A stretch of 64,000 nt of DNA, from NCBI RefSeq assembly GCF_030686865.1, contig NZ_JAQYUS010000008.1, positions 62,001 to 126,000 of the forward strand, in the 5' to 3' direction. Below the pieces are notes generated by a model, which was given only the letters and a program-made list of their open reading frames with translations, searched no databases and was not told the DNA's origin. The translations under genes and the position numbers were made by a program. This document shows positions 6,655 through 11,536 of this stretch, piece after piece. Each line of letters starts with the position of its first letter. Within the stretch, counting starts at the first letter, position 1. Source of the stretch: Kaistella sp. SH40-3. Its GTDB lineage: Bacteria > Bacteroidota > Bacteroidia > Flavobacteriales > Weeksellaceae.

Positions 6655-6763
6655 GGGCAGACAATTCCGCCTTCCGTTCCCGTTTTTTTCTTAAAATTTT
6701 TCCACCACCATTTCCCCTGCAAAAATTTCAAGAAAAAAGAGCTCCACTCAAGTCGGGCTGCAG
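6655..6763 (+). repeat. Dispersed intergenic repeat, copy B
   Basis: About 109 bp, beginning GGGCAGACAATTCCGCC and ending ACTCAAGTCGGGCTGCAG, with a pyrimidine-rich left half (runs of T) and purine-rich right half (AAGAAAAAAGAGCTC). It shares both ends with copies A and C. It occupies the gap between metF and the large metH gene. Confidence 0.75.
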
Positions 6764-6839: not shown

Positions 6840-6947
6840 GCCCTTTCAGGGCTTCGCAACGAATTTCTGATTTTTTCAATTCATCCATTTTGATGATTTC
6901 TTTTCAATGGGCTTCACCCATTGCTGTTGATTGCGCCACTTCGTGGC
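6840..6947 (+). repeat. REP-like palindrome array, distal (3 hairpins)
   Basis: Three perfect palindromes: GCCCT-TTC-AGGGC (6840-6852), CAATGGG-CTTCA-CCCATTG (6905-6923) and GCCAC-TTC-GTGGC (6935-6947). The last ends five bases before the metH stop codon. They belong to the same two alternating types that flank the transposase at 9803-10255, here in the TTC-on-plus orientation. Confidence 0.85.
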
Positions 6948-6951
6948 TTTT

Positions 6952-9612
6952 TTAATCTGCCAAATTTGGACTCAGCCATTTTCTCGCAAATTCCAAATCA
7001 ACACCTTTTCTGTCAGCGTAATCTTTCAACTGATCTTCAGAGATTTTTCCAACACCGAAGTATTTCGATTTCGGGTTTCCAAAGTAATATCCAGAAACTG
7101 CGGCAGTCGGAAACATTGCTAAACTTTCTGTCAGTTCTAAACCGATATTTTCTTTCACTTTAAGCAAATTCAAAATCGTGGTTTTTTCCAAATGATCTGG
7201 ACAAGCAGGATAACCTGGAGCGGGACGAATTCCTAAATATTTTTCGGCAATCAAATCTTCATTTTCTAACTTTTCATCTTCGGCATAACCCCAGAATTCT
7301 GTTCGAACTTTATGATGCAGAAATTCCGCAAATGCTTCTGCTAAACGGTCGGCTAATGCTTTAACAATAATTGCATTGTAATCATCACCATCATCGTAAT
7401 ATATTTTTGCTAATTCCTCCGTTCCAAATCCTGTTGTTACGGCGAACGCTCCGACATAATCTTGTTTTCCTGAAGTTTTTGGAGCGATGAAATCACTTAA
7501 AGCATGATATTCTTTTCCGGCAGATTTCTTAAGTTGTTGTCTTAAAGTATGGAATTTTGCCAGTTCATTTTTCTGTTCGTCGTAAACCAAAATATCATCT
7601 TGATTATTTGAGTTTGCAGGGAAAATTCCAAAAATTCCTTTTGCGGTAAATAGTTTTTCATCAAGGATTTTATCTAACATTACCTTGGCTTCTTTAAATA
7701 ATTCAGTCGCCTGTTCACCAACAACCTCATCGGTTAAAATCTGCGGGAATTTCCCATGAAGTTCCCAACTTCTGAAGAAAGGAGTCCAGTCCATAAAGTC
7801 AAGCAATTCTCGCAAATCTTGATTTTCGATGATATGAATTCCTAGATTTTTAGGTTTCGAAATGTTTTCATTTTCCCAATCGATGGTGAAATTTTGTTTT
7901 CTCGCTTCTTCGATTGTTACATACTCTTTGTCTATCTGTCGGTTCAAAAACTTCTCACGGAAATCTTCGTAATCGATTTTTAAATCTGCTTTATATTGTA
8001 CATTATTATGATCCAACAATTGAGAAACCACGCCAACTGCTCTGGACGCATCATTCACATGAACGACGGTATGTCCATATTTTGGAAATATTTTTACGGC
8101 GGTATGCGCTTTTGAAGTTGTGGCGCCACCTATCAATAATGGAAAGTTTAAATTTTTTCTTTGCAATTCATCGGCAACGTGAACCATTTCATCTAAACTT
8201 GGCGTAATCAATCCGCTCAATCCAATCACATCAACCTGATGGTCAATCGCAGCCTGAATGATTTTTTCCGCCGGAACCATCACGCCTAAATCGATGATTT
8301 CATAATTATTACAACCCAAAACAACACTCACAATATTTTTTCCAATATCGTGGACATCGCCTTTTACGGTTGCCATTAATATTTTCCCATTGGGTTTTTG
8401 TTTCTCATCTTTTTCTGCTTCAATGAAAGGTTGCAAATAAGCGACGGCTTTTTTCATTACGCGCGCAGACTTTACAACTTGAGGCAAAAACATTTTCCCA
8501 CTGCCGAATAAATCGCCGACAACGCTCATTCCAGTCATTAAATTAATTTCAATAACATCCAAAGGTCTTTTGGAAACAGTTCGTGCTTCCTCAACATCTT
8601 CAATAATGAAACGGTCAATTCCTTTGAGCAAAGCGTGGGTAATTCTATCTTGCAATGGTTCTTTCCGCCATTCTAATTCTTCAACGAATTCTTTTTTGGT
8701 CGATTTTACTCTTTCGGAATAATCAAGTAATCTTTCTGTTGCGTCATCTCTTCTGTCGAGCATTACGTCTTCCACCAATTCCAATAATTCTTTCGGGATT
8801 TCGTCATAAACCTCCAACATCGATGGATTCACGATTCCCATGTTCATTCCGGCTTTAATGGCGTGATAAAGAAAAACGGAATGCATTGCTTCCCGCACAT
8901 TATCATTTCCTCTAAACGAAAACGAAACATTAGAAACTCCACCGCTCACGGAAACATTTGGTAGATTTCCACGAACCCATTTTGTAGCGTCGATAAAATC
9001 CAAAGCATTTCTTCGGTGCTCTTCCATTCCAGTTGCAACAGGGAAAATATTCAAATCGAAAATAATATCTTCGGACGCAAAACCAACTTGGTTCACCAAA
9101 ATATCATAAGATCTTTTACAGATTTCGATTCTTCTGTCGTAATTATCGGCTTGTCCGTTTTCATCGAAAGCCATTACAATGACTGCTGCTCCGTATCTTT
9201 TAATGGTTTTCGCATGATGGATGAATTCCGCTTCACCTTCTTTTAAACTTATGGAGTTCACCACGCATTTCCCCTGAACGACTTGCAATCCTGCTTCCAG
9301 AATTTCCCATTTCGAAGAATCAATCATTATTGGAATCCGGGAAATATCGGGTTCTGATGCAATTAAATTAAGAAATTTAACCATGGCATATTTTCCGTCG
9401 AGTAATCCATCATCAAAATTAACATCCAGGATTTGAGCACCGCCATCAACTTGGTCACGGGCAACATCGAGTGCTTCAGAATATTTTTCTTCTTTTATCA
9501 ATCGAAGAAATTTCTTAGAACCGGCAACATTTGTTCGTTCACCAACATTAATAAAATTGGATTCAGGTGTTATAATTAAAGGTTCGAGACCTGAAAGTTT
9601 TAGATATTTCAT
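6952..9612 (-). CDS. metH: Methionine synthase, pterin/B12/activation domains (MetH C-terminal part)
   Basis: An 886-residue protein that lacks the homocysteine domain and carries the rest of cobalamin-dependent methionine synthase. Domains in order: methyl-THF-binding barrel ([14 protein letters not shown] near residue 22), the helical B12 cap, the B12-binding Rossmann domain with the cobalt-ligand motif [15 protein letters not shown] and GGATTS, and the C-terminal SAM-dependent reactivation domain with [12 protein letters not shown]. The homocysteine half is encoded separately at 10526-11536. The clean ATG at 9612 and complete domains argue that this is a working split protein, not a broken gene. 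A Y1 transposase gene and palindrome arrays lie between the halves. Confidence 0.95.
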
Positions 9613-9633
9613 TTTTTCTTATTCTTTTTAATA

Positions 9634-9781
9634 GCCACGAAGTGGCGCAATCATCATCATCATTGGGTGTAGTCCAATGAAACAGCACATTTTCATATAC
9701 AAGCCACGAAGTGGCGACATCAATAGCATTGGGTGCAACCCAATGAAAAACACAGGATACGAATCAAAGCCCTGAAAGGGC
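9634..9781 (-). repeat. REP-like palindrome array, downstream of transposase (5 hairpins)
   Basis: Five palindromes in strict alternation: GCCAC-GAA-GTGGC (9634-9646), CATTGG-GTGTAGT-CCAATG (9661-9679), GCCAC-GAA-GTGGC (9703-9715), CATTGGGTGCAACCCAATG (9727-9745) and GCCCT-GAA-AGGGC (9769-9781). On the plus strand the short ones have a GAA loop, the opposite orientation to the array on the other side of the transposase. The array starts 22 bases beyond the metH start codon. Confidence 0.9.
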
Positions 9782-9802
9782 GAAATCAATTTTAAACATT
9801 TA

Positions 9803-10255
9803 TCAATCCCAGATATATCTTTCATCATATTCAACATCATATTTCTTTAAAAATGCTAAAAATTCTTCCTGAAATGATTTCTTTTGATGATGTTCTTCCT
9901 GATTAATAATATATTTTTTCACCACTTCAATTTCAGTCGGATTTACCGAAAATGCTCCATATCCATTTTGCCAATAGAAATTTTCGAATTCCTTACCTTT
10001 TGTTTTGATCCATTTTGATGAATGTGACTTCACCTCTTCCAGCAGTTTCATTAAGGCAATCTTCTTTGATAATAAACATAAGATATGAACGTGATCTTTA
10101 TGTCCACCAATTTGAATTGGATCACATTCCAAATTTTTACAAATACCGCCTAAATAATTAAACAATTCTTCTTGTATTTCTTCTGTTATTAGAGGATTTC
10201 TGTGTTTGGTACTGAAAACTAAATGCACATAGATTTTGTTTAAAGATTGTCCCAT
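9803..10255 (-). CDS. IS200-like Y1 transposase, REP-associated (RAYT-like)
   Basis: A single-domain HUH/Y1 DNA nickase-ligase of 150 residues. The HUH pair is in GGHKDHVHIL (His55, His57) and the likely catalytic Tyr is Tyr115 in KKYIINQEEHHQ, followed by a conserved C-terminal tail ending YDERYIWD. No TnpB partner is present. The gene is intact and lies in the methionine operon between the two metH genes, flanked on both sides by small palindromes in inverted orientation. That is the layout of REP-associated tyrosine transposases, in which the enzyme acts on single-stranded hairpins. Whether it is an active IS200-type element or a domesticated RAYT cannot be decided here; the alternating hairpins favour the latter. 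Confidence 0.88.
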   Translation of the reverse strand: MGQSLNKIYVHLVFSTKHRNPLITEEIQEELFNYLGGICKNLECDPIQIGGHKDHVHILCLLSKKIALMKLLEEVKSHSSKWIKTKGKEFENFYWQNGYGAFSVNPTEIEVVKKYIINQEEHHQKKSFQEEFLAFLKKYDVEYDERYIWD

Positions 10256-10299
10256 TTTCGTTGTGTTTATTGAAATTATAATAATTCAATTTTTGATTT

Positions 10300-10432
10300 C
10301 ATAGGGCTGCACTTCGTTTACCCTATGCTTTTGATTTCGGTCTTTCAGACCTTTTGATTTCTGGTTATTTTCATTAGCATCATTGGGCCGCGCTTCGCTT
10401 ACCCAATGCTATTGATTTTGCCACTTCGTGGC
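10300..10432 (+). repeat. REP-like palindrome array, upstream of transposase (4 hairpins)
   Basis: Four palindromes alternating long-short-long-short: CATAGGG...CCCTATG (10300-10327, 14-base loop), GGTCT-TTC-AGACC (10339-10351), CATTGGG...CCCAATG (10381-10408, 14-base loop) and GCCAC-TTC-GTGGC (10420-10432). The two 14-base loops share a CTTCG core followed by TTA. The short stems differ in sequence but keep the TTC loop. The array fills most of the 270-base gap upstream of the transposase. Confidence 0.9.
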
Positions 10433-10525
10433 TTTACGGTGATATTCAACAATTTATCAACGTAACATTTTACCACTGTCTTTTGATAATTCATTCATGT
10501 TCAATTGCTATCGGTTTATACAGTT

Positions 10526-11536
10526 TTAGATTTTGACGCTAATTTTTCGAGGTTCATAATCATTCACCAAATCAGCAATCGCTTTAATGTGTGGTGGCGT
10601 AGTTCCGCAGCAACCACCAATAATATTGATGAGACCTTTTTCTGCATATTCACGAATTTGTTCTGCCATGAATTCAGGCGATTCATCATATTGTCCGAAA
10701 GCATTCGGTAAACCAGCATTTGGATAAGCCGAAATAAAGAAGTCAGAATTCTTGGATAAAGTTTCCAAATAAGGTGTTAATTGTTTCGCTCCTAAAGCAC
10801 AGTTTAATCCGACGCTCAGTAAATTCAAATGAGATATAGAAATCAAAAATGCTTCGGCGGTTTGTCCGCTCAAAGTTCGTCCGGAAGCATCGGTAATTGT
10901 TCCCGAAACCATAACTGGGATTTTAATATTCCTTTCTTCCTGAATTTCGTCAATCGCAAAAAGGGCGGCTTTCGCATTTAGAGTATCAAAGATTGTTTCA
11001 ACCAAAAAAATATCTGAACCGCCGTCTAAAAGCGCTTTCGCCTGTTGTTTGTACGCAATTCGCAGTTCATCAAAAGTGATCGCTCGAAAACCCGGATCAT
11101 TAACATCCGGACTTAAACTTGCCGTTTTATTGGTTGGTCCCATCGAACCAGCCACAAATCTTGGTTTGTCTGGATTTTGACTAGTAAATTCATCACAAAC
11201 TTTTCGTGCAATTTTCGCTGATTCATAATTAAGTTCGTAAACCAATTCTTCCATGTGGTAATCTGCCATGGCGATGGTCGTTCCTGAAAAAGTATTGGTT
11301 TCGATAATATCAGCGTCGGCTTCTAAGTACTTTCTATGAACTTCTTCGATGGCGTGTGGTTGAGTGAGTGAAAGTAAATCGTTGTTTCCTTTTAAAGAAT
11401 ATTCCCAATCTTTGAATCGTTCGCCCCGGTAATCTTCTTCCGAAAATTTATAGCGCTGAAGCATCGTGCCCATCGCTCCATCGAGGATGAGGATTCTTTC
11501 GTTTAAGGCTTTATAAAGTGCTGCTGTATTTTTCAT
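10526..11536 (-). CDS. metH: Homocysteine S-methyltransferase domain protein (MetH N-terminal part)
   Basis: A 336-residue protein equivalent to the first module of cobalamin-dependent methionine synthase. It binds and activates homocysteine through zinc. Landmarks are [11 protein letters not shown] at the N-terminus, ETNTFS, and the zinc cysteines in GLNCALGAK and [11 protein letters not shown]. It must work with the separate pterin/B12 protein encoded at 6952-9612, with methyl-B12 shuttling between the two. It starts 27 bases after the homoserine dehydrogenase stop codon and so is clearly in the methionine operon. It ends just after the zinc cysteines, at a natural domain boundary. Confidence 0.93.

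Follow-up and report, generated by a model that had tools for sequence, protein, structure and literature searches.

The present analysis concerns a 64,000-nucleotide stretch of the genome of Kaistella sp. SH40-3 (3.25 Mb, 33 contigs), referred to below as the window. It contains an intact Y1 (HUH) transposase-like gene, tnpA, which lies between the two genes of a divided metH (metH_C and metH_N), on the minus strand like metH, and encodes a protein of 150 residues (aa). Arrays of small hairpins, of a short (S) and a long (L) type, surround this gene and enclose metH_C. The features of the locus are as follows.

9803..10255, minus strand: tnpA-like Y1 (HUH) gene, 150 aa, with the TnpA_Y1 subclass 1.2 signature DHVH, WQ, YIINQEEHH (signature from PMC6006769)
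6952..9612, minus strand: metH_C, metH C-terminal gene of the host operon, MetH positions 343-1230
10526..11536, minus strand: metH_N, metH N-terminal gene of the host operon, MetH positions 8-338
6840..6852, plus strand: S hairpin, array 1, behind metH_C, GCCCT-TTC-AGGGC; the only S hairpin of the window without TGAT in the 12 nt on its 5' side
6905..6923, plus strand: L hairpin, array 1, CAATGGG-CTTCA-CCCATTG
6935..6947, plus strand: S hairpin, array 1, GCCAC-TTC-GTGGC; 4 nt separate it from the metH_C stop codon, and its TTC strand is antisense to metH
9634..9646, minus strand: S hairpin, array 2, GCCAC; reads TTC on the minus strand
9661..9679, minus strand: L hairpin, array 2, 6-bp stem
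9703..9715, minus strand: S hairpin, array 2, GCCAC
9727..9745, minus strand: L hairpin, array 2, CATTGGG/CCCAATG
9769..9781, minus strand: S hairpin, array 2, GCCCT; closest to tnpA on its 3' side
10300..10327, plus strand: L hairpin, array 3, on the 5' side of tnpA, CATAGGG/CCCTATG, 7-bp stem, 14-nt loop
10339..10351, plus strand: S hairpin, array 3, GGTCT-TTC-AGACC
10381..10408, plus strand: L hairpin, array 3, CATTGGG/CCCAATG, 7-bp stem, 14-nt loop
10420..10432, plus strand: S hairpin, array 3, GCCAC

The twelve palindromes of the original prediction were all found at their positions, in three arrays. Seven are of the S type (5-bp stem, loop TTC or GAA, arms GCCAC, GCCCT or GGTCT) and five of the L type; the description of the two types needed only small corrections, namely the arms and loop at 6905, the 6-bp stem at 9661, and the 7-bp stems and 14-nt loops at 10300 and 10381. 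The order S-L-S / S-L-S-L-S / L-S-L-S amounts to the strict alternation that had been claimed for each array. On the plus strand the S loops of the array to the left of tnpA read GAA and those to the right TTC, so these two arrays are inverted about the gene, again as predicted. Seen on the TTC strand of S, most units run from L through about 11 nt (CTNTTGATNNC) to S. The hairpin arrays are real and not an artefact. All seven GAA/TTC hairpins of the 64-kb window with at least three G/C in the stem fall in this region, and 100 first-order Markov shuffles of the window gave a mean of 0.44 and a maximum of 3 such hairpins. A known RNA family for the hairpins was rejected, since an Rfam search up to E=1 returned two sub-threshold matches only, Flavo-1 (27.2 bits against a gathering score of 42; window 6660-6763, minus strand, between metF and the first array) and IS009 (21 against 117).

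The window protein matched the Y1_Tnp domain (E=2e-27), and H55, H57 and Y115 were invariant among 14 diverse aligned members (window protein included), which bears out the prediction of an intact 150-residue HUH/Y1 protein with these residues. Around the array region lie metF and the two metH genes, together with two genes that score under the cut-offs of their models, one homoserine dehydrogenase-like and one MetX-like.

Related tnpA genes were collected by a genus search (36 genomes, 29 with a match, 74 rows), from which 69 rows were taken after three short fragments, one weak 124-residue match and the second half of one broken copy had been dropped, and by a family search (197 genomes, 126 with a match), from whose 30 best matches 20 new loci were added, weaker ones being left out. 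Of these 89 loci, 88, the window included, encode a protein of at least 130 aa, some with an internal stop. Within 400 nt of tnpA, 332 hairpins with a three-base loop were counted at the 88 loci, against 15.7 in dinucleotide shuffles; 74 loci had at least two, and 57 had hairpins on both sides. Read outward from tnpA, the loops were TTC, TAC or TCC 219 times and their complements 36 times, indicating that arrays are inverted about the gene in the relatives as well. This is not the arrangement of IS200/IS605 insertion sequences (IS), in which both end hairpins lie on one strand.

The loop follows a common pattern. Within 600 nt of tnpA, 283 of 356 hairpins had a loop that is GNA on one strand and TNC on its complement; C was the 5' closing base in 238 of these 283. 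Hairpins near tnpA had a GNA loop in 264 of 330 cases, compared with 13 of 52 beyond 700 nt; among distinct arm-loop types the figure was only 59 of 105. PMC4686876 describes DNA mini-hairpins with a GNA loop and G-C pairs as extraordinarily stable. A special stability of the GNA loop was rejected by a folding program, in which the two strands of each hairpin came out about equal (-3.2 to -5.4 kcal/mol); the program presumably gives this loop no bonus. In 19 of the 21 classes listed, which mix related sequences, more information resides on the TNC strand in the ten bases 5' of the foot than in an equal stretch 3' of it. The insertion point of ISDra2 is 3' of TTGAT; by analogy, this motif may act as guide or target at the hairpins described here. 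In IS608 and ISDra2 the guide is also 5' of the palindrome, and the GTAG of repetitive extragenic palindromes (REPs) could be equivalent (PMC8266576).

Each clade of TnpA has its own hairpin set. In the clade of the window it is GCCAC/GCCCT/GGTCT-TTC, and other clades have GCTCC-TAC, GTTCC-TAC, alternating ACCGC/ACGCC-TTC, alternating GGTGC/GCGGC-TTC, GTCGC-TCC, CGGGC-TTTA and others. On a quick tree of the 88 proteins (83 labelled; 30 of 83 inner branches weak) the loop class changed 11 times, against a mean of 37.05 and a minimum of 32 in 300 label shuffles. Among 68 genus loci, 67 of them with hairpins, a hairpin type was held in common by 160 of 178 pairs from different genomes whose TnpA proteins were at least 60% identical. 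Pairs less than 50% identical had a type in common in 3 of 51 cases within one genome and in 58 of 1719 cases between genomes. The hairpin type follows the TnpA clade, not the genome. In the clade of the window, S and L alternated in 35 of 38 cases for hairpins at most 45 nt apart. The composite two-hairpin unit proposed earlier is supported.

The gene itself does not hop like an IS but stays at fixed addresses. Of 16 homologues at least 71% identical, from several genus codes, 15 lie between metH_N and metH_C and one beside metH_N only. Members of the sister clade (58-62%) stand directly behind a trpF-like gene in 13 of 13 cases, with trpB next in 11 of 13; at the one such locus that was checked, trpB was over its cut-off, and trpF was the best match but under the cut-off. 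A paralogue in the genome of the window (38%) and five orthologues have both neighbours in common (6/6). Descent of tnpA together with its neighbours was clear in the trp clade (rank correlation 0.69, 0 of 2000 permutations, 10 loci). A broken second tnpA (58%; C4:300506-300954; L002, L004), a member of the sister clade, is located between the trpF-like gene and trpB of the same genome as the window, and relatives have intact orthologues of it.

The metH locus was obtained in 30 of the 36 genus genomes. Its gap holds tnpA in eight, is empty (29-87 nt) in 13, contains hairpins without the gene in G025 (162 nt) and a decayed gene in G029, measures 426-451 nt in five with an apparent 23S_rRNA_IVP gene (one of the five checked), and has other inserts in two. 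Relatives with an empty gap likewise have metH in two genes, as in the window (6952-11536). Genes of the 23S_rRNA_IVP family (PF05635) were seen in the metH gap of G001 (L149:1078-1443) and in a thiolase-gene gap of G006 (L239:257-610), that is, in operon gaps which elsewhere hold tnpA or a hairpin unit, so such gaps seem to be shared landing places.

The S-type motif GCCACTTCGTGGC has 13 copies in the source genome and none in the reversed control. The degenerate pattern GCCNNGAANNGGC gave 22 matches (control 13), 17 of them perfect palindromes (13 GCCAC, 4 GCCCT). Nine sites lie outside the metH locus, which supports the predicted enrichment beyond metH. At eight of them a perfect L hairpin stands beside S, with start distances from L to S of 25-31 nt in seven and of 43 nt at L012, where the order is S, L; the ninth, L008, has an A+T-rich L below the L cut-off used. 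The exact L pattern CATTGGG N3-18 CCCAATG occurred at three places only, because L stems vary. The unit is a cassette, L-spacer-S, of about 60-100 bp where one unit is inserted, with mostly CTNTTGATNNC as the spacer.

These cassettes are scattered between genes and are present or cleanly absent at orthologous gaps. Thirty trpG-trpD loci (of 31 matches) were compared, including ten relatives with TrpD at least 90% identical. The gap holds the unit in G000 (77 nt), G017 (103 nt) and G008 (67 nt), measures 4 nt in G014, G007, G006, G001, G025, G003 and G004, and has another insert in G010. Seven further sites of the source genome were compared in up to ten relatives each. The murG-murC gap is filled in G000, G006, G001, G007 and G010 and 1 nt long in the other six; the purC site is filled in G000, G003 and G006, 27-29 nt in six, and has another insert in two; L016 is filled in G000 only, the three relatives found having 33-35 nt, and L008 in G000 and G006 (21-47 nt in seven). 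L015 is filled in G000, G010, G025 and G004 and has other content in G003, G014, G006 and G008, and in G007, G001 and G017 this gap holds a different tnpA with its own GCTCC-type hairpins. L010 and L009 showed a mixed, less clear pattern. In the four clean filled/empty pairs (trpG-trpD, murG-murC, purC and L016), inspection by eye placed the start of the extra sequence at or within a few nt of the stop codon; gaps of 1-4 nt leave no other place, so that target choice and selection are inseparable here. Of 37 distinct sites, counted with mechanical open reading frames (ORFs) and including some that are orthologous or adjoin tnpA, 29 have the TTC strand antisense to the gene that lies 3' of it, as do all nine dispersed sites of the source genome. 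In 13 of the 37, no more than 14 nt separate the hairpin from the stop codon of a gene so placed.

Motif and enzyme tend to occur together. With a close tnpA defined as E<=1e-44 (39 genomes, one a fragment), GCCACTTCGTGGC was present in 48 of the 197 family genomes: 30 had both, 9 tnpA only, 18 the motif only and 140 neither. The association with this transposase clade that had been suggested from the window alone is thus seen in relatives, 30 of 39 genomes with a close tnpA carrying the motif against 18 of 158 without. When TnpA was at least 68% identical, 19 of 20 genomes carried GCCACTTCGTGGC; within the genus the corresponding counts (both, tnpA only, motif only, neither) were 10, 1, 4 and 21. 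A second motif, GCTCCTACGGAGC, occurred in 7 of 7 genomes with GCTCC- or GCTCC-like hairpins beside tnpA and in 8 of 29 others, relatedness being ignored and some copies being the flanking hairpins themselves.

The arrangement recurs in Bacteroidota, Planctomycetota, Verrucomicrobiota and Acidobacteriota, so the system is not confined to Bacteroidota, the phylum named in the original prediction. A scan of named genomes considered the best 80 of at least 585 relatives, many of them metagenome-assembled genomes whose contigs are possibly misassigned; among the named matches listed, the closest was Kaistella haifensis (87% TnpA identity), and the scan may omit the source genome and its near kin. 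Titles of these 80 include Bacteroidota, Ignavibacteria, Chlorobi, Planctomycetota, Verrucomicrobiota, Acidobacteriota, Sumerlaeota, Armatimonadota, Lentisphaerae and one Deltaproteobacterium; no cyanobacterium was among them, though that phylum is in the published range. Around these 80 genes 420 hairpins were counted, against 42.5 after shuffling. In one frequent pair, the arms of S = GCCCT-TTC-AGGGC are complementary to those of L = CCAGGGC-GTT-GCCCTGG, and C-rich and G-rich arms alternated in 158 of 222 adjacent hairpins at most 45 nt apart. The motif GCCCTTTCAGGGC was found in 9 of 12 such genomes (controls total 1), with partly clustered copies, for example in Flavipsychrobacter (35), Algoriphagus (19), Pollutibacter (18) and Bacteroides xylanisolvens (8); in the other three of the 12 genomes searched, Kaistella haifensis, Chryseobacterium oleae and Cesiribacter, there was none.

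By its signature the enzyme is not a REP-associated tyrosine transposase (RAYT) but belongs to TnpA_Y1 subclass 1.2, on the IS200 branch. The window protein scored 20.5 bits with the NCBIfam model REP_Tyr_transpos (NF047646; cut-off 80) and 77 bits with the NCBIfam IS200/IS605 model (cut-off 55); four relatives gave 30-32 bits (two), 36.5 bits (one) and no match (one) with NF047646. Its closest fold was that of ISDra2/IS608 in a PDB comparison that re-ranked 996 chains only, so that the lack of other folds there carries no meaning. Subclass 1.2 was described with the motifs DH[IV]H, WQ and Y---Q--HH, a length of about 150 aa and low copy number (Quentin et al. 2018, PMC6006769). The window protein has these motifs and this core length, the Y...Q..HH motif is present in 79 of 84 stop-free relatives, and the source genome contains one intact copy, one broken copy (58%) and one distant paralogue (38%), which agrees with the low copy number. 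The same study reported subclass 1.2 mostly from Cyanobacteria and Bacteroidetes, with the REP entry 'no' and without IS properties. The gene of the window resembles that description in motifs, size, copy number and occurrence in Bacteroidetes, and differs from it in the dense hairpin arrays beside the gene and in relatives from more phyla. The absence of REP or IS-end hairpins is a property reported for the subclass and not part of its sequence definition. Moreover, the automatic REP search of PMC6006769 demanded GT[AG]G, which makes the present hairpins invisible to it: this tag was found 0-2 nt 5' of the foot at none of the 24 hairpin feet in the window, and around the loci it gave 7 matches at 330 hairpins, either strand considered.

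Comparison with the REPtron (TnpA_REP/RAYT with REPs or bacterial interspersed mosaic elements; classes 2.2 and 2.5, Bertels groups 2 and 3) gives a similar anatomy: a resident, low-copy HUH-Y1 gene flanked by palindromes, which are also dispersed between genes, each enzyme having its own type. In Bertels group 3 there are short perfect palindromes interrupted by 3 nt (PMC8266576). Unlike the REPtron, the enzyme is of class 1 and not class 2, the GT[AG]G tag is absent, two dissimilar hairpins alternate, and a TTGATNNC-like or other clade-specific stretch stands at the foot. The system is REPtron-like in anatomy and evolution, and it is neither a RAYT nor an IS. The REP/RAYT-like arrangement of the original prediction therefore stands, and membership in the RAYT family, given the score of 20.5 bits against 80 and the missing GTAG tag, does not. 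A true class-2 RAYT is encoded elsewhere in the source genome (contig C3, L012:501-1106; NF047646 95.9 bits, cut-off 80); it adjoins its own CAAAGTC/TGCGCAGC palindromes, and a GCCCT cassette is found some 0.4 kb from this gene. Literature searches by motif strings and by words, with most subscription papers outside their coverage, turned up no account of hairpins associated with subclass 1.2. In passages of PMC11194056 a gene called 'RayT' is placed near abeS in Chryseobacterium, with its Y1 class unstated and palindromes unmentioned, and PMC3733652 describes GTAG and CGTC repeats.

These features are probably best explained by a resident single-strand transposase system that works like a REPtron and is run by a TnpA_Y1 of subclass 1.2 instead of a RAYT. 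On an exposed strand (lagging-strand template or repair), TnpA would bind the folded hairpins, cut where the conserved TTGAT-like stretch on the 5' side of the foot directs it, and join cassettes to new sites, mostly just behind stop codons, either by target choice or by selection. Arrays beside tnpA would grow by tandem or nested copying, and the host would tolerate a cassette because the genes on both sides are left intact. Mobilisation of the hairpins by this enzyme is inferred.

It is unlikely that the arrays are the ends of ordinary IS200/IS605 elements, or remnants like miniature inverted-repeat transposable elements, and that tnpA with its end hairpins jumped in recently. Such an origin would fit the IS200 model score, the nearest fold and the presence of TGAT, part of the ISDra2 target, within 12 nt 5' of six of the seven S hairpins of the window. 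It does not fit the inverted arrays, the single intact copy of the type in the source genome in place of near-identical copies at different sites, the orthologues at the same operon position across several genera, or the published lack of IS properties in subclass 1.2; in the same way IS608 and ISDra2 differ from the present system by their multiple copies, same-strand left and right ends and changing address. No tnpB-like ORF beside tnpA was present in the ORF list. There is also little probability that the hairpins serve the host in regulation, as terminators, attenuators or mRNA stabilisers, and have the transposase beside them by chance. Four of the twelve hairpins score as terminator-like in their listed form, and one more (9703) does so with an extended stem; seven terminator-like sites in a 4-kb stretch compare with 3.0 in shuffles, and the position of cassettes behind stop codons would suit such a role, but it leaves the crowding at tnpA and the clade specificity unexplained, and close relatives lack cassettes at the same gaps. 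Intrinsic termination for the operon was rejected as the main function, as the TTC strand with its T-rich tail is antisense to the preceding gene at all nine dispersed sites. Two of the five terminator-like stems (9769 and 9703, array 2) are on the sense strand just behind tnpA and may serve as a terminator for tnpA itself, and cassettes may later have been put to regulatory use.

Spread of the hairpins by another route (tandem slippage, recombination, or a class-2 RAYT elsewhere), with tnpA only collecting them, is similarly improbable. G002, whose best TnpA match is 40% identical, carries 31 GCCACTTCGTGGC copies, some of them in tandem arrays of 68 bp, so a close partner is not needed for arrays to persist or grow, and the RAYT of the source genome has repeats of its own. 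Against such a route, the repeats beside the RAYT are of the other, CAAAGTC type, though one cassette lies near that gene, and the hairpin type tracks the TnpA clade even within one genome. One tandem array of 68-bp L-S units in G002, a genome without a close tnpA, is located at L124:1360-1851. Besides G002, several observations weigh against a REPtron-like system run by this TnpA. Of the 48 family genomes that bear GCCACTTCGTGGC, 18 have no close tnpA, and of the 39 with a close tnpA, 9 lack GCCACTTCGTGGC; the test for their co-occurrence (Fisher 2e-15) ignores relatedness. Only 19 of 88 loci have one and the same stem in inverted order on the two sides of a tnpA, compared with 2.7 (at most 7) in a swap control and with 7 for the direct arrangement. 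Over all neighbours, S/L alternation in the clade of the window was 0.64, not above every shuffle (maximum 0.66), and by this definition it fails in other family clades (10 of 66). Descent with neighbours is unproven in the metH clade (rank correlation 0.33, 185 of 2000 permutations, 14 loci), and drift at the filled sites blurs the precise ends of the cassette and any motif at the target.

A bolder proposal, which is tentative, is that this is a third kind of Y1-transposase/hairpin partnership, neither IS200/IS605 nor RAYT/REP, present in many phyla. In it, a subclass 1.2 TnpA that is inherited vertically and resides in biosynthetic operons (metH, trpFB) would recognise C-GNA-G mini-hairpins through a clade-specific code of loop and foot, and would paste two-hairpin cassettes just behind stop codons in one orientation. 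If this were true, operons would gain 3'-end mRNA hairpins as a heritable regulatory layer.

Subclass 1.2 had previously been left without a function or a DNA partner. The clade-by-clade match of enzyme and hairpin supplies ready cognate and non-cognate substrates, with which recognition and cutting are directly testable, and filled and empty operon gaps in close species are natural experiments on the effects of hairpins on mRNA. REPtron-like partnerships on both Y1 branches would bear on whether REPs had a single or a repeated origin.

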